Part shown: positions 11,242 to 54,348 of the stretch, piece after piece
Layout of the letters: each line of letters opens with the position of its first letter
How positions within the stretch are numbered: position 1 is the stretch's first letter
Assembly (NCBI GenBank): GCA_003554025.1
Contig: PWFC01000014.1
Location: 1-64,000, forward strand
From: Mollicutes bacterium
GTDB taxonomy: Bacteria; Bacillota_I; Bacilli_A; Izemoplasmatales; Izemoplasmataceae
DNA: 64,000 nucleotides
Reading direction: 5' to 3'
The notes under the pieces: model-generated
Seen by the model: only the letters and a program-made list of their open reading frames with translations
Told to the model about the DNA's origin: nothing
The model's database searches: none
Position numbers and translations under genes: made by a program

Positions 11242-11493
11242 GTGAAAAAACAAATCGTAATACAAAGCACAGAGGGCTTGCACGCCGCTTTGGCCTCAAA
11301 GCTCGTGCAGCTCGCTTCCACGTTTTCCGCCGATGTCCGCATGGAATACGCGGACAAAGTCGTGGACGCCAAATCGGTTCTCAGCTTGATCAGCCTGGCG
11401 GTCCCAAACGGCGAAAACGTGAACATCATCGCCGAAGGCAGCGATGCCGAAGAAGCGATTCAAGAAATCGAGAAGTTGCTGGAAAGGGGATGA
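11242..11493 (+). CDS. HPr-like phosphocarrier-domain protein without the active-site arginine
   Basis: This 83-residue protein has the HPr fold pattern of the sugar phosphotransferase system. The histidine is kept (His14 in EGLHAALA), but the usual HARPA is HAALA, so the arginine that supports phosphotransfer in true HPr is replaced by alanine. The regulatory serine position is kept (Ser45 in DAKSVLSL), which in Bacillota is phosphorylated by HPr kinase to make the CcpA co-repressor. It lies between pgk and tpiA, and its TGA abuts the tpiA start. I infer a regulatory, Crh-like role rather than sugar transport, but it could be a divergent functional HPr. Confidence 0.8.
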   Translation: MKKQIVIQSTEGLHAALASKLVQLASTFSADVRMEYADKVVDAKSVLSLISLAVPNGENVNIIAEGSDAEEAIQEIEKLLERG

Positions 11494-32752: not shown

Positions 32753-32780
32753 TTGATTTCTCCCGTAATCAGCGTATAAT
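32753..32780 (+). promoter_or_regulatory. Promoter of the glutamate mutase operon
   Basis: TTGATT (32753-32758), a 16-base spacer and TATAAT (32775-32780). This 330-base intergenic stretch (32667-32996) holds, in order, a terminator, this promoter, a cre-like site, a possible leader peptide and an attenuator-like hairpin. Confidence 0.75.
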
Positions 32781-32788
32781 TATAAATG

Positions 32789-32804
32789 TGGAAAGCGTTT
32801 ACAC
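32789..32804 (+). promoter_or_regulatory. cre-like site (CcpA binding) at the glutamate operon start
   Basis: The sequence TGGAAAGCGTTTACAC begins nine bases after the -10 box. Its 14-base core matches the cre consensus TGWNANCGNTNWCA at all but the first position. A cre at this position normally represses by blocking initiation or early elongation. Confidence 0.65.
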
Positions 32805-32832
32805 GAAGACAAAGAAGACGAGGGTAATGACG

Positions 32833-32919
32833 ATGAGAACTTGGGCTGCACGAAACGAAAATGTGTGTGGTATAGTAGTCAAAAACGTCTCTCTCAGTAT
32901 ATCTTCAGGCGAATCGTAA
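32833..32919 (+). CDS. Possible leader peptide upstream of glmS
   Basis: A 28-codon open frame (MRTWAARNEN...SGES, TAA at 32917-32919) lies within the glutamate operon leader. GAGGG at 32820-32824 is eight bases before its ATG. It ends 11 bases before an attenuator-like hairpin. The peptide is not enriched in glutamate or any single amino acid, so a classical amino-acid attenuation mechanism is not indicated. It may be a chance frame. Confidence 0.3.
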   Translation: MRTWAARNENVCGIVVKNVSLSISSGES

Positions 32920-32930
32920 CGAAAAAACGG

Positions 32931-32961
32931 GGATGATTTTAACGACAAAATTATCCTTTTT
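32931..32961 (+). terminator. Attenuator-like hairpin in the glmS leader
   Basis: Arms GGATGATTTT and AAAATTATCC (one mismatch) with a six-base loop are followed by five T. It lies about 145 bases after the promoter and 35 before glmS, so it can only act as an attenuator or mRNA 5' structure. A weak alternative pairing of GTCAAAA at 32875 with its 5' arm is possible. Confidence 0.5.
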
Positions 32962-32996
32962 ATTGTGTTAAAAAGCACCGCGAGAGGATGGTTAGC

Positions 32997-33404
32997 GTGC
33001 ATACTGTTGTCATAGGCGTCATCGGCGCCGACGTTCATGCCGTCGGCATTCGAATCATCGAACATGTTTTGCGAAAACACGGTTTCAACGTCGTCAACAT
33101 CGGCGTTTTATCCTCGCAGGAGGATTTTATCAACGCGGCCATCGAAACCAACGCCAAGGCCATTTTGGTTTCTTCGCTCTACGGCCACGGCGAAATGGAT
33201 TGCAAATACATGAAAGAAAACTGCGAAGAGGCAGGATTGAGTCATGTGAAACTGTATGTCGGCGGCAACATCGTCGTCGGCAAACAGGATTTCAAAGACG
33301 TTGAACAACGTTTCAAAAAAATGGGCTTCGACCGCGTTTACCCGCCCGGAACCGACATTGAGGAAGCGGTCGAACACATCAAGGAGGATCTCAATACCGC
33401 ATGA
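32997..33404 (+). CDS. glmS: Glutamate mutase sigma (S) subunit, B12-binding
   Basis: This is the small cobalamin-binding subunit of adenosylcobalamin-dependent glutamate mutase, which rearranges L-glutamate to (2S,3S)-3-methylaspartate. The 135 residues show the base-off B12 motif DxHxxG as DVHAVG (about 12-17), then [29 protein letters not shown] and GGNIVVGKQ, very close to the Clostridium protein. GTG at 32997 is chosen over ATG 32988 because GAGAGG abuts the ATG but is nine bases from the GTG. The 3' end overlaps glmL by four bases. Confidence 0.96.
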
Positions 33405-46089: not shown

Positions 46090-46301
46090 ACACTAAAATG
46101 CATGGACACGGGCATAGTATTCGGACATTGTTTTCAGAGACTTAGTGGCTGCTGCGAACTAAGAACAATCCCCGAAGAACTCACCCGAAGAGCAGTGCGG
46201 GCAAAACCCGCAACGTATCCCGCGTTAAGGGCCAAAGCGCTACGGAACTAAGGTGGTACCGCGGAACTCTCCGTCCTTAACTTTGTTAAGGGCGTTTTTT
46301 T
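46090..46301 (+). promoter_or_regulatory. Leucine T-box riboswitch
   Basis: The conserved T-box AAGGTGGTACCGCGGA lies at 46250-46265, followed by a terminator (CGTCCTTAAC / GTTAAGGGCG, 46272-46294) and a T-run. Upstream, stem I carries GAACTCACCCGAAG, where CTC at 46180-46182 sits in the specifier position and codes leucine, matching the downstream leuS. Uncharged tRNA-Leu should pair with CTC and with the antiterminator bulge (TGGTA) to allow transcription. About 230 bases lie between promoter and leuS. Confidence 0.93.
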
Positions 46302-46322: not shown

Positions 46323-48728
46323 ATGAAATACAATCCGAAAACCATTGAAAAGAAATGGCAAAAGCACTGGTACGATTCCGACTGCTTCGAAGCCAAGGAT
46401 TTTGGCGAGAAACCCAAATATTACGCGCTTGTGGAATTCCCCTACCCTTCAGGAACCGGCATGCATGTCGGTCACATTCGCGCCTACACTTCGCTTGAGG
46501 TCGTCTCGAGAAAACGGCGGATGGAAGGCTACAACGTTCTTTTTCCGATCGGTTTCGACGCCTTCGGCCTGCCTACCGAAAATTACGCGATGCAGGAAAA
46601 AATTCACCCGCGCAAGGTGACCGACCAAAACATCGAGATTTTCACCGACCAGCTCAAACGTGCCGGGTTCAGTTTCGATTTCTCCCGCATGGTCGATACG
46701 ACCGACAAAGATTACTACAAATGGACGCAGTGGATTTTCGTGCAGCTTTTCAAAAACAATCTGGCCTACCGCCATAAAACGACGGTTAATTTTTGCCCCG
46801 ACTGCAAGGTCGTCTTGTCCAACGAAGAAAGCCAAGGCGGAAAATGCGACCGTTGCGGCGAAAGCGTCGTCCAAAAAGAAAAAGACGTCTGGTTCTTGAA
46901 AATCACCGAATATGCGGAACGCCTGCTCAAAGGTCTTGAGGAATTAGAGACGCTCCCCCGCATCAAAACCGAACAGAAGAACTGGATCGGCAAATCGATC
47001 GGCGCGGAAATCCGTTTCGGCATCGCCGATTCCAATGAGAGCCTGAATGTTTTCACCACCAGGCCCGATACCTTGTTTGGTTCGACGTTTATGGTCATCG
47101 CCCCCGAACATCCCTTGCTTGAAAAAGAATCCGACAAAATTGAGAACGCAAAAGCGTTGAAAGAATACCAAAAGCGCGCCGCCCAAAAAACCGAATTTGA
47201 ACGCACCGAACTTCAAAAAGACAAGAGCGGTCTCAAACTAGAAGGCATTGAAGCCCTTCATCCCTTAACCGGAGAAAAGATGCCCGTCTTCGTCGCCGAT
47301 TACGTGATGATGGATTACGGAACGGGCGCCATCATGGCCGTCCCCGGCCACGACGAACGGGACTACGAATTTGCAAAAACCCACGGATTGTCCATTGTCG
47401 AGGTCATTGAGGGCGGCGACATTGAGAAAGAAGCCTTCACCGATGTGGAAACCGGCACTCTTGTCAACAGCGATTTCTTAAACGGCCTCGATGTCCAAGA
47501 CGCCATCGACGCCATGATCGACCACCTCGTCAAACACGACCTAGGAAAAAAAGCCGTCAACTACAAAATGAAAGACTGGGCCTTCAACCGCCAACGCTAT
47601 TGGGGCGAACCCATTCCCATTGTGCATTGCGAAGATTGCGGCATGGTGGCCGTCGATGAAGAGGATTTGCCGGTCACTTTGCCGGACATCGAAGACTTCG
47701 CGCCCAACGAAGAAGGAGAAAGTCCGCTTGCGAACATCGAATCCTTCGTGCACACCACTTGTCCCAAATGCGGTCGAAACGCCAAACGCGAAACCGACAC
47801 CATGCCCCAATGGGCGGGCAGTTCGTGGTATTTCCTTCGTTACATCGACCCGAACAACGACAAAGAACTCGCCAATTACCACAAACTCAAATATTGGCTG
47901 AACGTCGATTGGTACAACGGAGGCATGGAACACGTCACAAGACACGTCATCTATTCTCGTTTTTGGCACCAGTTCCTCTACGACATCGGCGTGGTGCCGA
48001 CCAAGGAACCATACAAAAAACGCACCGCCCAATGATTGATTTTGGGCCCTGATGGCGATAAGATGAGCAAATCGAAAGGCAACGTCGTCAACCCGATGGA
48101 AACCATCGAAAGCTATGGCGCCGATACATTGCGCCTTTACATCCTCTTTATCGGCGACTACGAGCAATCGACGCCTTGGAGCGAATCCGGCGTCAAAGGC
48201 GCCCGCAGATTTTTAGAGAAAGTATGGCGCCTCCAAGACAAGGTGAAAGACCAAAAACCCGACGAAGAACTCACGAATTTCCTTCACAAAATCATCGACG
48301 GCGTCGATACGGACATCGAAGCCACCAAATTCAACACCGCCATCTCAAAATTGATGACGTTCGTCAACGAAGCCTCGAAAAAAGAAACCATCGCCAAAGC
48401 GACCTTTGAAACCTTTTTGAAACTGCTCAACCCCTTCGCTCCGCACATCAGCGAAGAACTCAACCAAAACATCGGCAACAATGAATCGCTGGTGTTTGCG
48501 GCTTATCCCGAGGCGGACCCCGAACGACTCAAAGAAGAAAAGGTCACCATCGTGTTGAGCGTCAACGGCAAAATGCGCGACAAAATTGAAGCGAAAAAAG
48601 ACGAAGACAAAGAGAAACTTGAAGAACTCGCCTTGGCCAATGAACGCGTGCAAAAGTTCATCGAAGGCAAGAGCGTGCAAAAAATCATTGTCGTCCCGAA
48701 CCGCCTCGTGAACGTGGTCGCCCAATAA
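46323..48728 (+). CDS. leuS: Leucyl-tRNA synthetase, with in-frame TGA
   Basis: This class I synthetase charges tRNA-Leu. The reading frame spans 801 codons, the usual bacterial length, but codon 571 (48033-48035) is TGA. The first part (570 residues) has the HIGH-type motif GMHVGHIRAYT (about 43-53), zinc-like CPDCKV...CDRCGE and the CP1 editing domain with MAVPGHDERD. The second part begins LILGPDGDKMSKSKGN (KMSKS at 48060-48074) and holds the anticodon-binding domain. Homologues read QGMILG or QGLILG here, so TGA replaces glycine, a GGA-to-TGA change. No ribosome site precedes the second part. ATG 48031 overlaps the TGA but closes after six codons in another frame. Confidence 0.88.
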
Positions 48729-48758: not shown

Positions 48759-48805
48759 CATTTTGCCATGATTTTTTTGTATGACAACTTTTTCCCTTTT
48801 TAACG

Positions 48806-48834
48806 TTGCAAGCCCCGTTCAAACATGATATAAT
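48806..48834 (+). promoter_or_regulatory. Promoter of the bcd-vor-buk operon
   Basis: TTGCAA (48806-48811), a 17-base spacer and TATAAT (48829-48834), ending about 70 bases before the bcd ATG. Confidence 0.8.
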
Positions 48835-48840
48835 TTCACT

Positions 48841-48866
48841 GTAAAAACGCTTTCATGGAAAAGCGT
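48841..48866 (+). promoter_or_regulatory. cre-like palindrome at the bcd operon start point
   Basis: GTAAAAACGCTTTCATGG at the expected +1 contains a 14-base core that fits the cre consensus with one mismatch (A for G at position two). It is followed by GAAAAGCGTTT, which makes a near-palindrome with the first half. Position suggests repression of initiation by CcpA. Confidence 0.6.
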
Positions 48867-48905
48867 TTAAATTATGAGTGCCAAATCGAAAGGGAGGCTT
48901 TTTTA

Positions 48906-49982
48906 ATGAAAAAATTTGAGTACATGGAGAAATACGGCTACGAACAGCTTGTGTTTTTTCATGACGCGACCACAGGTTTGAAAGGCATCACATGCATTCA
49001 CAACACCACCCTCGGGCCCTCTCTCGGAGGAACGAGACTTTGGGTCTACGACAACGAAGACGACGCGACGCTCGATGTATTGCGGTTGGCTCGCGGCATG
49101 ACCTACAAGGCGGCATGCGCCGGATTGAATCTTGGCGGCGGAAAAACCGTCTTGATCGGCGATGCGAAAAAGGTCAAAAGCGAAGAATATTTCCGCGCTC
49201 TTGGACGCTATGTCCAAACGCTAGGCGGACGCTACATCACCGCGCCGGATGTCAACACATCCGCCAAAGACATGCAGTATGTCAATATGGAGACCGATTA
49301 TGTCGTCGCCATCCCCACCAAGAGCGGAAACCCCTCGCCGGCCACGGCACGAGGAGCGTTTCACGGCATCCGCGCCTCGCTCAAAGAACGTTTTGGCACT
49401 GACGACATGAGCGAACGCACATTTGCGGTACAAGGCGCCGGGCAGACCGGCGACTTCCTGATTGGCGATTTGCTTGAAGCGGGCGCCAAAAAAGTGTATT
49501 TCACCGAAATCAACGAAGACCACATCGCCAAAATCAAAGAAAAATACCCCGATGTCGAATACGTCGAACCCGATTCAATCTACGACCTCGACGTCGACGT
49601 CTTCGCCCCATGCGCGCTTGGCGCCGTCATGAACGACAAGACCATCAAGCGCCTCAAGTGCGAAATCGTTGCCGGTACGGCGAACAACGTCCTCGAAGAC
49701 GAAGAGAAACACGGCGAAGCCCTCAAAAAGCGCGACATTTTGTACGCTCCCGACTTCGTCATCAACGCCGGCGGCCTAATCAACGTTTCCCACGAACTAG
49801 AAGAAGACGGATACAGCAAAGATAAAGCGTTCAGCGACATCGAGAGAATTTACGACCGTCTGCTTGATATATACCAAGTCGCCAAAGAAAACGACACCCA
49901 CACCCAAGAAGCGGCGAAAATCTTTGCGAGACGCCGCATTGAAACCATCAACAAACTTCATTCCAACTACATCAAACGATAG
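48906..49982 (+). CDS. bcd: Leucine/branched-chain amino-acid dehydrogenase
   Basis: This NAD-dependent oxidative deaminase of the Glu/Leu/Phe/Val dehydrogenase family converts leucine, valine and isoleucine to 2-oxoacids. The 358 residues match leucine dehydrogenases. The catalytic lysines are in GMTYKAACAGLNLGGGKTVL (about 64-83), the Rossmann motif is VQGAGQTGDFL (about 176) and APCALGAVMND and GTANNVLED complete the pattern. GGGAGG precedes the ATG at 48906; the frame upstream holds the cre and leader. The next gene starts right after its stop. Confidence 0.93.
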   Translation: MKKFEYMEKYGYEQLVFFHDATTGLKGITCIHNTTLGPSLGGTRLWVYDNEDDATLDVLRLARGMTYKAACAGLNLGGGKTVLIGDAKKVKSEEYFRALGRYVQTLGGRYITAPDVNTSAKDMQYVNMETDYVVAIPTKSGNPSPATARGAFHGIRASLKERFGTDDMSERTFAVQGAGQTGDFLIGDLLEAGAKKVYFTEINEDHIAKIKEKYPDVEYVEPDSIYDLDVDVFAPCALGAVMNDKTIKRLKCEIVAGTANNVLEDEEKHGEALKKRDILYAPDFVINAGGLINVSHELEEDGYSKDKAFSDIERIYDRLLDIYQVAKENDTHTQEAAKIFARRRIETINKLHSNYIKR

Positions 49983-50633
49983 ATGAAACGTTTGACGATT
50001 CTCAGTGGACACTATGGAGCGGGAAAAAGCGAAATCGCGGTGAATATGGCCATCGATTTCCGGATGGATGCCCTCGTCGATCTGGATATCATCAATCCGT
50101 ATTTCCGCTCCCGTAGTGTCCACGCTTTACTGCAAGAACACGGTGTGAATCTCGTCGAATCAAGCGTCGAGAAATCTTCGGGAAGCGATTTGCCCTATAT
50201 CAGCGCCCAAGGCAGCAGGCCTTTTTACGATAAAAGCTTGCGGGCCGTTTACGATTTGGCGGGCACCAAAGCGGGCGCGAAAATCATGATGCAATACCGC
50301 GATTTGATCGACGCCGACGAAGACTTGGATTTCTTCGTCGTCGTCAACGTGTTCCGCCCCGACACCGACACGCCCGACAAGATTGTCCGGCTGATCGAAA
50401 CCTTAGAGGGTGGCGCACAACTCAAAGTGACCGGTTTGATCAACAACAGCAATCTCATCAAAGAAACAAAAGAAGAACACATCGCACAAGGGGAGAAGAT
50501 TCTTCAAGAGGGCTCAAAAGAAACCGACCTTCCCATCGTCTACACCTTTTATGAAGAATCGGTGAAACCGACCCGGCGATTTTCCGGCGAAGTGCGCCCT
50601 CTTAGGCGTTACCTTGCCAAAACATGGTTATAG
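49983..50633 (+). CDS. P-loop ATPase of the vor operon
   Basis: This 216-residue nucleotide-binding protein has Walker A GHYGAGKSE (about 9-17), then DLDIINPYFRSR near 38. It resembles the MinD/ParA/CobQ-like P-loop proteins that sit beside 2-oxoacid:ferredoxin oxidoreductase genes in anaerobes. Its role is unknown; a part in complex maturation or cofactor insertion is inferred from position only. It follows bcd with no gap and overlaps nothing; vorD starts ten bases downstream. The C-terminus is basic and unlike ParA. Confidence 0.75.
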   Translation: MKRLTILSGHYGAGKSEIAVNMAIDFRMDALVDLDIINPYFRSRSVHALLQEHGVNLVESSVEKSSGSDLPYISAQGSRPFYDKSLRAVYDLAGTKAGAKIMMQYRDLIDADEDLDFFVVVNVFRPDTDTPDKIVRLIETLEGGAQLKVTGLINNSNLIKETKEEHIAQGEKILQEGSKETDLPIVYTFYEESVKPTRRFSGEVRPLRRYLAKTWL

Positions 50634-50643
50634 GAGGCTATTC

Positions 50644-50868
50644 ATGGCAAAAGGAAGAATCATCATTGCGGAGGACAAATGCAAGGGCTGCGGACTGTGC
50701 ATCCACCATTGTCCTGTCGACATACTTGCGCTTGACACTTCAAGGACAAACAAAAAAGGCTACACGCCGCTTTATGTGACGGACCCGGAAAAATGCATCG
50801 CTTGTTCGATGTGCGCCCTCGTTTGTCCCGACAGCGTCATCACCGTTGAACGTTTCAAGAAATCCTAA
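50644..50868 (+). CDS. vorD: 2-oxoacid:ferredoxin oxidoreductase delta subunit (2[4Fe-4S])
   Basis: This 74-residue ferredoxin-like subunit has two CxxCxxCxxxC clusters: CKGCGLCIHHCP (about 14-25) and CIACSMCALVCP (about 49-60). It passes electrons from the catalytic core to ferredoxin. AGGAGG precedes the ATG at 50644. Its place before vorB, A and C makes it the delta subunit of a four-subunit enzyme of the VOR/KOR type. Confidence 0.92.
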   Translation: MAKGRIIIAEDKCKGCGLCIHHCPVDILALDTSRTNKKGYTPLYVTDPEKCIACSMCALVCPDSVITVERFKKS

Positions 50869-50880
50869 AGGAGTGAAATC

Positions 50881-51954
50881 ATGGCAAAAGTTCTAATGAA
50901 AGGGAACGAAGCGATGGCCCTAGCCGCCATCAAGGGTGGATGCGACGCCTTTTTCGGCTATCCCATCACCCCGCAAAACGAAATTCCCGAATACCTTTCC
51001 TACCATATGGAAAAAAACGACCGCGTCTTTGTGCAAGCCGAAAGTGAAGTCGCGGCCATCAACATGGTATATGGAGCCGGAGGCGCGGGCGCGCGCGTGC
51101 TCACCTCCTCTTCAAGCCCCGGCATCGCCTTGAAACAAGAAGGCATCAGCTACCTTGCCGGCAGCGAAGTCCCCTGCGTCATCATCAACGTCATGCGCGG
51201 AGGCCCTGGCCTCGGCGGCATCCAGCCGGCGCAATCCGATTACAACCAAATCACACGCGGCGGCGGAAACGGCGATTACCGCGTGCTTTCCTTCGCCCCC
51301 GAAAACCTCCAAGAGGCGGTCAACATCATCAAAGAAAGTTTTTCTCTCGCCGATTATTACCGCAACCCGGTCATGATCGCCGTCGACGGATTGCTCGGGC
51401 AGATGATGGAACCGATCGACCTTGACGAAGCGCCCGATTTCGGTCCCGCGAAAGAAAAGCCTTGGGCCGCCGACGGTTCTTCGGGCAAACGCGGCAGCCG
51501 CAACAAGATCGTTTCTTTGCATCTTGACCCCTACAAACTCGAAGAACACAACTTGAATCTCAAGAAAAAATACGACGAAATGGTGGACAAGGAACAGCGT
51601 TACGAAACCGTCGAAATCGACGACGCGGAAATCGTTTTTGTCGCGTATGGTTCGATGGCGCGCATCGCAAGAAGCGCCGTTGACACATTGCGCAAAGAAG
51701 GCGTCAAGGTCGGCATGATTCGGCCGATTTCTCTTTGGCCCTTCCCGCAAAACGCTTTCGAGAAGCTTCCGAAATCCGTGCATACGCTCTTGACGCTTGA
51801 AATGAGCCTCGGACAGATGCACCAAGACGTCCGCATCGTCAACAACGGACGCTACAAACTCGACTTCTACGGCCGCACCGGCGGCGTCGTCCCCGAACCC
51901 GAGGAAATCGTCGAACGCGTCCACAAACTCCTCAATAAGGAGGACCAATCATGA
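50881..51954 (+). CDS. vorB: 2-oxoisovalerate:ferredoxin oxidoreductase alpha subunit
   Basis: This is the subunit that binds substrate and supports thiamine-diphosphate chemistry. The 357 residues show GCDAFFGYPITPQNEIPEYL (about 20-39), VQAESEVAAINMVYGAGGAG and SSSSPGIALKQEGISYLAG, then NVMRGGPGLGG. This is the VorB pattern; VOR oxidises branched-chain 2-oxoacids to acyl-CoA. The 2-oxoglutarate enzyme (KOR) is similar; the bcd and buk neighbours favour branched-chain acids. Overlaps vorA by four bases. Confidence 0.88.
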   Translation: MAKVLMKGNEAMALAAIKGGCDAFFGYPITPQNEIPEYLSYHMEKNDRVFVQAESEVAAINMVYGAGGAGARVLTSSSSPGIALKQEGISYLAGSEVPCVIINVMRGGPGLGGIQPAQSDYNQITRGGGNGDYRVLSFAPENLQEAVNIIKESFSLADYYRNPVMIAVDGLLGQMMEPIDLDEAPDFGPAKEKPWAADGSSGKRGSRNKIVSLHLDPYKLEEHNLNLKKKYDEMVDKEQRYETVEIDDAEIVFVAYGSMARIARSAVDTLRKEGVKVGMIRPISLWPFPQNAFEKLPKSVHTLLTLEMSLGQMHQDVRIVNNGRYKLDFYGRTGGVVPEPEEIVERVHKLLNKEDQS

Positions 51955-52712
51955 AAACCGAAACCGTATACAAACCGACACACGGTCTCACCGACCGGGA
52001 TTTGAGCTATTGCCCCGGATGTACGCACGGCATCATCCACAAGCTCGTCGGCGAAGTCCTCGTCGAAAAGGGCTTGCTTGACGAAGCCGTCGGCGTCGCA
52101 AGCGTCGGCTGCAGCGTGCTTAGTTACGAGTTTTTCAACTGCGACATGCATCAAGCCGCGCACGGTCGTGCGCCGGCGGTCGCAACCGGCATCAAACGTG
52201 TCCGCCCCGAACACGCCGTATTCACCTATCAGGGCGATGGCGATTTGGCGTCGATTGGTCTGAGCGAAGTCGTACACGCTGCCCATCGCGGCGAGAACAT
52301 CACCGTCATTTTCGTCAACAACGCCATCTACGGCATGACCGGCGGGCAAATGGCGCCTACGACCCTCATCGACCAAAAAACGACGACCTCTCCCCTCGGC
52401 CGCAAAAAAGAAGGCGCGGGCGAACCGATCCGCATCAGCGAAATGCTCGCCACCATTCCCGGCGCCGCTTATTTGGAGCGCGTAAGCGTGCACGACCCAA
52501 AACACATCCGCAAAGCCAAAAAGGCCATCGAAAAGGCGTTTGATGCGCAGATGAACAAGCAAGGGTTCACCTTGGTCGAATTCATCTCCACATGTCCAAT
52601 CAACTGGGGCATGAACCCCAAGGATTCCATCGACTGGTCGGTCGAGCATATGATACCTTATTATCCGCTCGGCGTTTTCAAAGACAAAACGAAAGGTGAT
52701 AGCGATGATTGA
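51951..52712 (+). CDS. vorA: 2-oxoisovalerate:ferredoxin oxidoreductase beta subunit (TPP-binding)
   Basis: This 253-residue subunit binds thiamine diphosphate. It has the CPGCTHGIIHKL motif (about 22-33), GCSVLSYEFF, the TPP motif YQGDGDLASIG (about 92-102) with downstream NNAIYGMTGGQMAPTT (about 124-139), all typical of VOR/KOR beta subunits. The start overlaps vorB by four bases and its end overlaps vorC by eight. Confidence 0.9.
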   Translation: MKTETVYKPTHGLTDRDLSYCPGCTHGIIHKLVGEVLVEKGLLDEAVGVASVGCSVLSYEFFNCDMHQAAHGRAPAVATGIKRVRPEHAVFTYQGDGDLASIGLSEVVHAAHRGENITVIFVNNAIYGMTGGQMAPTTLIDQKTTTSPLGRKKEGAGEPIRISEMLATIPGAAYLERVSVHDPKHIRKAKKAIEKAFDAQMNKQGFTLVEFISTCPINWGMNPKDSIDWSVEHMIPYYPLGVFKDKTKGDSDD

Positions 52713-53247
52713 TGAACGCGTCATAGTCGCAGGCTTCGGCGGTCAAGGCGTCATGCTGATGGGGCAAATTCTCTCCTACGCCGCCACGCAGGAAGATTTG
52801 AACACCGCGTGGATTCCTTCATACGGTCCCGAAACGCGCGGCGGCACGGCGAATTGTTCGGTGGTCATCTCCAAAGCCCGCATCAATTCACCGGTCGTAA
52901 GCGAACCCGACACTTTGATCGTGCTCAACCAGCCTTCTTTGGACAAGTTTGAGAAGAAACTCAAAAAAGGCGGCAAGCTGTTGGTGAACAAAGCGCTCGT
53001 CGATACGGAAAAAATCCGCGACGATGTGGAACTTTACGCCGTCGACTGCAACAAAATCGCCCTTGACATCGGCAATTTGAAAGTCGCCAACATGGTCATG
53101 CTTGGCGCGTATATCGCCATGACCGACATGTTTGAAAAAGAAGCGATTTTCGCCGTGTTCGATCAAATCTTCACCGGCGCAAAAAGCAAACTGATCGATA
53201 TGAACAAACAAGCGCTTGAGGCCGGCATCAAAGCGATTGAAGCGTAA
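52705..53247 (+). CDS. vorC: 2-oxoisovalerate:ferredoxin oxidoreductase gamma subunit
   Basis: This 180-residue subunit contains the GFGGQGVMLMGQIL pattern (about 9-22), PSYGPETRGGTANCSVVIS and NLKVANMVMLGAYIAM, the gamma-domain signature of 2-oxoacid:ferredoxin oxidoreductases. The ATG at 52705 is preferred over GTG 52696 because AAAGGTG lies upstream. It completes a four-subunit complex with vorD, vorB and vorA. Confidence 0.9.
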   Translation: MIDERVIVAGFGGQGVMLMGQILSYAATQEDLNTAWIPSYGPETRGGTANCSVVISKARINSPVVSEPDTLIVLNQPSLDKFEKKLKKGGKLLVNKALVDTEKIRDDVELYAVDCNKIALDIGNLKVANMVMLGAYIAMTDMFEKEAIFAVFDQIFTGAKSKLIDMNKQALEAGIKAIEA

Positions 53248-53277: not shown

Positions 53278-54348
53278 ATGAGAATCCTAACGATCAACCC
53301 GGGTTCAACCTCTACGAAAATCGCCGTGTTCGACAAGGTCTTCAAGAAGCACAAGCCTTTTGCGAAAACGACCATCAAGCACAACGGTTCACAGATGCTG
53401 CAGCTTGAAACCCTCGCCGAACAGCTGCCTTTGCGCCGCAAACTCATCGAGGAGTTCTTAGAGGAATACGACATAGAACTAAAAAGCATCGACGGGTTCA
53501 TTGGCAGAGGCGGGTTGCTGCGTCCCTTAGAAAGCGGCCTTTACCGCGTCAACGACAAGATGATCGAAGAACTCACGGCCAACGCCCATGGAGAACACGC
53601 CTCGAACTTGGGCGGACTCATCGCCCACGCTTTGGCCGAAAAAGGGGGCAAACACGCCTACATCGCCGACCCGGTAGTGGTGGATGAAATGGACGACGTG
53701 GCGAAGATGTCCGGATTAAACGGCATCGAAAGACGCAGTTTGTTTCACGCTTTGAACCAAAAAGCCGTTGCTAGAAAGTACAGCGAAGAACAAGGCGTTC
53801 CCTACGAAGATTTGCATTTGATCGTCGCCCATTTGGGTGGAGGCATCAGCATCGGCTATCATAGACAAGGCCGTGTGGTCGATGTCAACAACGCCCTTGA
53901 CGGGGACGGACCGATGTCGCCCGAACGAGCGGGAAGCTTGCCGGTTTGCAGCGTCATCGATATGGCGTCTTCTTCGCAATCGGCCGAAGAATTCAAAAAA
54001 ATGGTCCGCAGCTACGGAGGCATGTTCTCGTATTTGAACACCAAAGACGCCGAGGAAGTTTCGGACATGCTCGCCGAGAACAACCTTGAAGCGGAGCGGG
54101 TCGTCAAAGCGATGGTGCATCAAATCGCCAAAGAAATTGGCGGATTGTTCGCTTTGACCCACGGCCAGCTTGACGCCATCATTCTCACCGGCGGCCTCGC
54201 CTACAATCAAGACATCATCCAACCGCTCATCGAGACGATCGACCATCTCGGCGACATCACTCTCTACCCCGGCGAAAACGAACTCGATTCCATGGCCTTC
54301 AACATGCTCGCCCTATTAGAAGGGCGGACAAAAGCCAAAGAATATTGA
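53278..54348 (+). CDS. buk: Butyrate (branched-chain fatty-acid) kinase
   Basis: This acetate-kinase-family enzyme converts acyl-phosphate plus ADP to carboxylate plus ATP. The 356 residues have TINPGSTSTKIAVF (about 4-17), LIVAHLGGGISIGYHRQGRVVDV (about 182-204), DGDGPMSPERAG (about 209) and the adenine-site ILTGGLAYN (about 302). Length and motifs fit butyrate/isobutyrate kinases rather than acetate kinase. It closes the operon, giving substrate-level phosphorylation from branched-chain acyl groups. The phosphotransacylase that would feed it (ptb) is not in the window. Confidence 0.93.
   Translation: MRILTINPGSTSTKIAVFDKVFKKHKPFAKTTIKHNGSQMLQLETLAEQLPLRRKLIEEFLEEYDIELKSIDGFIGRGGLLRPLESGLYRVNDKMIEELTANAHGEHASNLGGLIAHALAEKGGKHAYIADPVVVDEMDDVAKMSGLNGIERRSLFHALNQKAVARKYSEEQGVPYEDLHLIVAHLGGGISIGYHRQGRVVDVNNALDGDGPMSPERAGSLPVCSVIDMASSSQSAEEFKKMVRSYGGMFSYLNTKDAEEVSDMLAENNLEAERVVKAMVHQIAKEIGGLFALTHGQLDAIILTGGLAYNQDIIQPLIETIDHLGDITLYPGENELDSMAFNMLALLEGRTKAKEY

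Follow-up and report, generated by a model that had tools for sequence, protein, structure and literature searches.

Results

A cre-like site lying at about the transcription start of a branched-chain amino-acid fermentation operon is very probably the operator of a CcpA-type repressor of the LacI family, and comparison across 61 genomes points, just as firmly, to the same regulator at the glutamate fermentation operon and at a second branched-chain operon. The genome encodes a CcpA homologue, HPr and HPr kinase, several of its operons carry the operator, and relatives keep it. Amino-acid burning is probably turned down by this control when sugar is plentiful in a mostly uncultured, Izemoplasma-like family.

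Promoter, operator and genes of the two operons

The window, i.e. the whole 64,000-nucleotide stretch of DNA that was analysed, belongs to a genome of 1.507 Mb in 85 contigs that is 91.6% complete; its features are listed in Table 1. The initial annotation had read TTGCAA-17-TATAAT followed at about +1 by a cre-like core with one mismatch, and this was confirmed: the spacer is 17, and the operator TAAAAACGCTTTCA differs from the cre pattern TGWAANCGNTNWCA on either strand by a single mismatch, G to A at the conserved position 2, with the central CG present. The glutamate operon had been credited with the same arrangement, which is true of promoter plus cre and not of the near-palindrome, since no inverted repeat was found at the glutamate-operon site. 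Over the sites examined, operator centres lie either 12–18 nt past the last −10 base or, in an upstream class, near −60.5 from the assumed start.

Table 1. Features of the two amino-acid fermentation operons in the window
Feature	Position	Strand	Basis or remark
−35 box TTGATT, glutamate operon	32753..32758	+	promoter scan
−10 box TATAAT, glutamate operon	32775..32780	+	promoter scan
cre-like operator GGAAAGCGTTTACA, glutamate operon	32790..32803	+	pattern match, relatives
glmS, first gene of the glutamate (methylaspartate) fermentation operon	32988..33404	+	profile match
TTGTATGACAA palindrome upstream of the branched-chain promoter	48777..48787	+	sequence; candidate site for a second regulator
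−35 box TTGCAA, branched-chain operon	48806..48811	+	sequence reading, promoter scan
−10 box TATAAT, TG-extended, branched-chain operon	48829..48834	+	sequence; TATAAT in the same place in relatives
cre-like operator TAAAAACGCTTTCA at about +1 (16-mer GTAAAAACGCTTTCAT, 48841–48856)	48842..48855	+	pattern match and conservation
Leader hairpin, 5′ arm AAACGCTTT, within the operator	48845..48853	+	inverted repeat, folding
Leader hairpin, 3′ arm AAAGCGTTT, the 'second half' of the initial annotation	48860..48868	+	inverted repeat, folding
Ribosome-binding site AAGGGAGG	48890..48897	+	by eye
Glu/Leu/Phe/Val-family amino-acid dehydrogenase, leucine-dehydrogenase-like	48906..49982	+	profile matches
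P-loop protein	49983..50633	+	leads the operon where the dehydrogenase is missing
Ferredoxin-type delta subunit, start uncertain	50614..50868	+	profile match
VorB, 2-oxoisovalerate:ferredoxin oxidoreductase subunit	50881..51954	+	NF005507, above cut-off
2-oxoacid:ferredoxin oxidoreductase beta subunit	51951..52712	+	profile match below curated cut-offs
2-oxoacid:ferredoxin oxidoreductase gamma subunit	52696..53247	+	TIGR02175, above cut-off
Butyrate kinase	53278..54348	+	TIGR02707, above cut-off

Both operons had been taken for amino-acid fermentation operons, and gene-family matches bear this out. The branched-chain route runs from the amino acid through the 2-oxo acid and acyl-CoA to an acid plus ATP. 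The operon from 32988 contains genes for methylaspartate mutase and lyase together with citrate-lyase-like genes, which marks it as one for glutamate fermentation. The start codon of the dehydrogenase was picked by its ribosome-binding site. The P-loop protein has no match in Pfam or NCBIfam and a relative in 45 of the 61 genomes. A related dehydrogenase was found at 23 loci, mostly in MAGs labelled Candidatus Izimaplasma or Mollicutes, the others bearing single Acholeplasmatales, Bacilli and Bacterium labels or, more distantly, Fusobacteriaceae, Halothermothrix and Butyrivibrio.

Some further features lie close by. The palindrome upstream of the branched-chain promoter, possibly the site of a second regulator, resembles the motif of a GntR-type regulator, and TGTCATACA (either strand) occurs at varying distance in 11/18 dehydrogenase-first leaders of the same family. 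Upstream of leuS there is a T-box leader (window 46094–46281; RF00230, 105.7 bits), and leuS itself has an in-frame TGA (48033–48035, context RTAQ*LILG) that may be a sequencing error, a mutation or recoding; leucyl-tRNA synthetases have glycine at this position.

Conservation at the branched-chain operons

Among the 61 genomes, 45 leaders of the branched-chain operon were examined, 30 from the window's family (18 dehydrogenase-first, 12 P-loop-first) and 15 from a sister family (7 and 8, respectively; G048, with a partial P-loop gene only, was left out), and a cre-like site follows the −10 box in all 45. The exact 16-mer was found in 22/61 genomes, one copy in each, and its reversed control in none. 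All copies except one are at the branched-chain operon, 14 ahead of the dehydrogenase and 7 ahead of the P-loop gene in genomes lacking the dehydrogenase; the remaining copy (G046) lies elsewhere, with no TATAAT within the 45 preceding bases. The 14-mer TAAAAACGCTTTCA occurs in 22/30 leaders of the window's family, where the variants are TAAAAACGCTTACA (3), GTAAAACGCTTTCA (2), TAAAAGCGCTTTCA, GTAAAGCGCTTTCA and CAAAAACGCTTACA. In the 15 sister-family leaders the site differs in sequence, being of the TGTAAGCGTTTWC or TGGAAGCGTTTWCA type (individual forms: TGTAAGCGTTTTC(C/G/T), TGTAAGCGTTTACG or TGGAAGCGTTT(T/A)CA), and its centre is 12 nt past the −10 box in 15/15. A Bacilli MAG whose dehydrogenase is 68% identical (L017) has TGTAAGCGTTTACG at the corresponding place; a scan of 180 bases allowing one mismatch found no site at three distant dehydrogenase operons with Fusobacteriaceae/Halothermothrix labels (L018–L020).

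The second branched-chain operon, on contig C18, encodes butyrate kinase, phosphate butyryltransferase (the phosphotransacylase step), a second dehydrogenase and a PEP carboxykinase-like protein. Its canonical cre, TGAAAACGCTAACA, lies just before the −10 box. From relatives 17 stretches were fetched and the kinase start was found in 16, all of which keep the cre (13 with no mismatch, 3 with one), three bases ahead of TATAAT and in the spacer if the −35 box is TTGTTG or its like.

A shared operator with a shifting position at the glutamate operon

At the glutamate operon, 30 loci of the window's family, one of them (L127) cut by a contig end, and 14 of the sister family were examined. The sister family has TAAAARCGCTTWCA after the −10 box at 12/14 loci, nearly the branched-chain operator, and 2 of these 12 carry the window's exact 14-mer; no site was found at the other two (G052 and G054). 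Nothing points more strongly to a common regulator than this common operator type, and it is very probable that both operons answer to one regulator. In the window's family the site follows the −10 box at 10/30 loci (NGNAAGCGTTTACA in 9, TAAAAGCGTTTACA in 1), and at 19/30 a site with the right half CGCTTWCA is upstream of −35, at a distance of 18 nt in 15, and of 17 nt and 19 nt in 2 each. If the start is taken to be about 7 nt past the −10 box, the 16 upstream sites placed by pattern are centred at −60.5 (13), −61.5 (2) and −59.5 (1).

According to a B. subtilis study, a cre upstream of −35 usually activates, one in or after the promoter represses, and the lev operon, repressed from an upstream cre, is an exception (PMC3463425). 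Since most glutamate sites of the window's family occupy the usually activating position, control may have a different sign in different genera, and a common control does not imply a common sign. The initial annotation had placed both operons, 16 kb apart, under one apparent sugar-sensing control as a small regulon. Shared CcpA-type control of the amino-acid fermentation operons is well supported by the conserved cre-like operators, by the operator type common to both operons in the sister family and by the single LacI-family protein found in the genome; the same sign for both operons is not implied.

The glutamate leader between promoter and glmS (32827–32964) has features of its own, namely a 30-codon open frame followed by a terminator-like hairpin, GGATGATTTT..AAAATTATCC TTTTT, and looks like a leader-peptide attenuator. 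An open frame of at least 15 codons ends in 27/29 same-family leaders (relatives L122–L151). Nineteen of the 29, the set with the upstream site, were aligned, and a hairpin GCCG..CGAC inside the frame there has 5 predicted pairs, 3 of them changed on both sides; 9 leaders of the other set were aligned as well. An Rfam search with four loci gave no family at gathering score.

The candidate regulator

A single LacI-family protein, a CcpA homologue, was found in the window's genome; since the assembly is 91.6% complete, another could be missing. All 8 solved sequences that match it at 1e-30 or better are CcpA under the present or an older name (best 1e-72), and 34/54 residues of its HTH plus hinge are identical to B. 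subtilis CcpA. The best NCBIfam model is ccpA (300.8 bits against 180.3 for the next), and because this score is below the curated equivalog cut-off of TIGR01481 (442.35 bits), we call the protein a CcpA homologue. Its gene, with neighbours recognised by eye that are presumably trmD and rplS, is preceded by a TGAAAGCGATTGAA site centred 56 nt upstream. Among the 61 genomes, 60 have a match at 1e-20 or better; the match of G052 is distant (28% identity), so the orthologues were counted as 59. G052, with only this distant LacI relative, is also without the glutamate-operon site; G054 has CcpA and lacks that site.

The window's genome has HPr kinase and three HPr genes, and over cut-off HPr kinase was found in 47/61 genomes and HPr in 53/61. 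Neither was detected in G012 (99% complete), which has the sites and CcpA, and HPr kinase was not detected in G011 (99% complete), so classical sensing through HPr-Ser-P may not hold everywhere. In seven genomes of a third family (G037, G039, G041, G043, G045, G047, G049) HPr and all three operon markers are lacking. As a separate observation, an HPr-like protein in the window (11242–11493) reads GLHAALA in place of the GLHARPA of the other HPr read, keeps a KS motif, and is possibly an HPr paralogue with a regulatory role.

The operator might be real and shared and yet belong to another regulator, either a LacI-family protein in an assembly gap or a non-LacI factor sensing amino acids or redox. 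The incompleteness of the assembly leaves room for this, as do the further, more distant LacI-family proteins of many relatives and the undetected HPr and HPr kinase of G012, and a single copy of the exact 16-mer in each of the 22/61 genomes that have it is unusual for a global regulator. Against it stand the cre of the second branched-chain operon with at most one mismatch in 16/16 relatives, the usual-type cre at the corresponding place of the sister family's branched-chain operon, and the near-universal CcpA orthologue. We consider another regulator unlikely.

A leader hairpin that overlaps the operator

The initial annotation had described a second half completing a near-palindrome. The inverted repeat is real, with 6 nt between AAACGCTTT and AAAGCGTTT; its second half lies outside the shared operator and is the 3′ arm of a hairpin at branched-chain operons. 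In the window's family, the dehydrogenase-first leaders form a stem between A(A)ACGC and a GCGTT(T) further downstream at variable distance (at least 6 pairs, G-U allowed, in 18/18), and this stem beats shuffled downstream sequence at 0.05 in 12/18. The P-loop-first leaders of this family keep the operator, and their stems beat shuffles at 0.05 in only 1/12. In the sister family, a stem of 7 or more pairs is present in all 8 P-loop-first leaders, 5/8 beating shuffles at 0.05, and the best stem in 7/8 is of another type, GTTTTCC/GGAAAAC and variants; dehydrogenase-first leaders have a stem in 4/7. Mean folding z was −1.7 (18 dehydrogenase-first) and −0.9 (12 P-loop-first) in the window's family, and −0.7 (7) and −1.9 (8), respectively, in the sister family. 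Glutamate leaders had no such stem above chance (mean z +0.5 for 12 of the sister family, 0.0 for 10 others). When downstream parts were swapped, the score in the window's family fell from 17.6 (native) to 10.6, and sister-family operators joined to window-family downstream parts scored 16.1, as high as their own 15.2; owing to this one-sided outcome, clear specificity is seen for the window-family stem only.

Selection could be keeping a 5′-terminal RNA element of the message (stem AAACGC/GCGTTT) in place of a DNA site for a protein. The stems present throughout the same-family dehydrogenase-first and sister-family P-loop-first leaders speak for it, and stem scores are higher in the 45 branched-chain leaders than in 22 glutamate leaders (p = 4.5e-8, with relatedness uncorrected). 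We nevertheless judge it improbable, more so than another regulator: 12 sister-family glutamate operons have nearly the same operator and no stem, the 12 same-family P-loop-first leaders keep the operator with a single stem above shuffles, and the glutamate site of other genera, upstream of −35, is outside the transcript. The hairpin is a leader feature of the branched-chain operon and not part of the operator; a role as the core function was rejected, since operators of almost identical sequence stand without a hairpin, and protection of the 5′ end is our guess. Two tandem cre sites were not favoured either, because the arm spacing varies and the sister-family 3′ arm GGAAAAC has no CG.

Frequency of sites in the window and in the genome

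Taken singly, neither promoter-like sites (11 against 10.3 expected in 16 kb) nor cre-like matches (9 against 5.2 expected in the window, with 16/100 shuffles reaching 9) exceed chance. The combination of promoter plus cre, counted by a rule drawn up after both sites had been seen, occurs exactly twice in 64 kb, at the glutamate and branched-chain operons; in 300 dinucleotide shuffles it was absent from 299 and occurred once in the other. A chance resemblance of an AT-rich start region to cre, suggested by the single counts, can practically be dismissed in view of this joint test and the conservation.

A genome-wide motif search gave a mixed picture. The strict cre pattern with at most one mismatch shows no excess in number (24 + 16 = 40 against 20 + 21 = 41 for the reversed control); its distinct places are between genes more often (10/35 against 3/31, background 7.9%), which is borderline against the control (Fisher p = 0.051) and clearer against the background (binomial p = 0.0003). 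Our gene caller was crude and took the sites at the glutamate operon, pgk and histidine ammonia-lyase for coding sequence. Matches to a looser pattern numbered 207, against 72 in its reversed control. Context was inspected for 37 entries (35 distinct places) chosen from the strict matches and the 100 looser matches listed, symmetric ones being favoured, and many are inside genes. Promoter-placed sites among the matches listed precede further amino-acid genes, namely the second branched-chain operon, histidine ammonia-lyase and a tryptophanase-family enzyme. Other promoter-placed sites among those listed precede pyruvate phosphate dikinase, NuoE-like, pgk-like (window 9910), ccpA and TrmB-family regulator genes and a weakly MalF-like permease gene (90 bits, no Pfam match); behind one is what we take, by eye only, to be gapA. 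All of these but the second branched-chain operon were observed in a single genome, and chance will account for some.

Discussion

Repression by CcpA at the branched-chain operon would work as follows. With a preferred sugar present, HPr kinase would phosphorylate HPr on serine, and CcpA with HPr-Ser-P would bind at the presumed +1 and block initiation or early elongation, so that branched-chain amino acids would not be fermented under sugar. The same regulator would act at the window's glutamate operon and at the second branched-chain operon, and possibly at the histidine and aromatic amino-acid lyases, the MalF-like permease gene and ppdK. Such a circuit for the choice between sugar and amino acids could be tested in little-studied, mostly uncultured anaerobes.

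A wider reading joins these observations, and we put it forward tentatively, as possible but somewhat less than an even bet. A CcpA-type operator may have been moved about in the order: it would repress the branched-chain operon from +1, and the glutamate operon would be repressed from +1 in the window's genus and the sister family or activated from about −60.5, mostly 18 nt from −35, in numerous further genera of the family; the sign would switch between sister genera. The branched-chain operator would double as an arm of a 5′-terminal mRNA hairpin, with different stem sequences in the two families, adding RNA-level control. The moving glutamate-operon site, if this is true, would be a clear natural case of a repressor-to-activator change between sister genera.

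The control proposed is a new case of an already known kind, with two twists, the hairpin and the shifting glutamate site; our literature search, with most subscription journals outside its coverage, found no paper joining 'Izemoplasma' and 'CcpA'. The cre_var of Clostridium acetobutylicum has inverted arms with a variable spacer that resemble the two arms here. It requires TGTAAA/TTTACA cores (PMC5263246), which our arms are not, and identity with cre_var was rejected; moreover, the conserved unit here is the 14–16-mer, and other operons lack the 3′ arm.

In Clostridioides difficile, CcpA acts directly on amino-acid (Stickland) fermentation genes, repressing leucine reduction and activating proline reduction genes (PMC3510511). 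The C. difficile cre, RRGAAAANGTTTTCWW, is without the central CG that is kept here, and the pathways here are the oxidative branched-chain and methylaspartate routes.

There is also a close likeness to CcpA/cre of B. subtilis, which shares the 14-nt pseudo-palindrome around CG, its place in or just after the promoter for repression, and the genes for CcpA (here a homologue), HPr and HPr kinase. TAAAAGCGCTTACA, equal to a variant observed here, is listed as the high-affinity xsa cre of B. subtilis, in which sites of high affinity are concentrated about the start site (PMC3463425). Strong conservation of G2 is described there, whereas many sites here have A at position 2 and the operator is without this G. 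The systems differ also in that the targets here are anaerobic amino-acid fermentation operons, and in that the first branched-chain operator varies little and, in dehydrogenase-first leaders, forms part of an mRNA hairpin.
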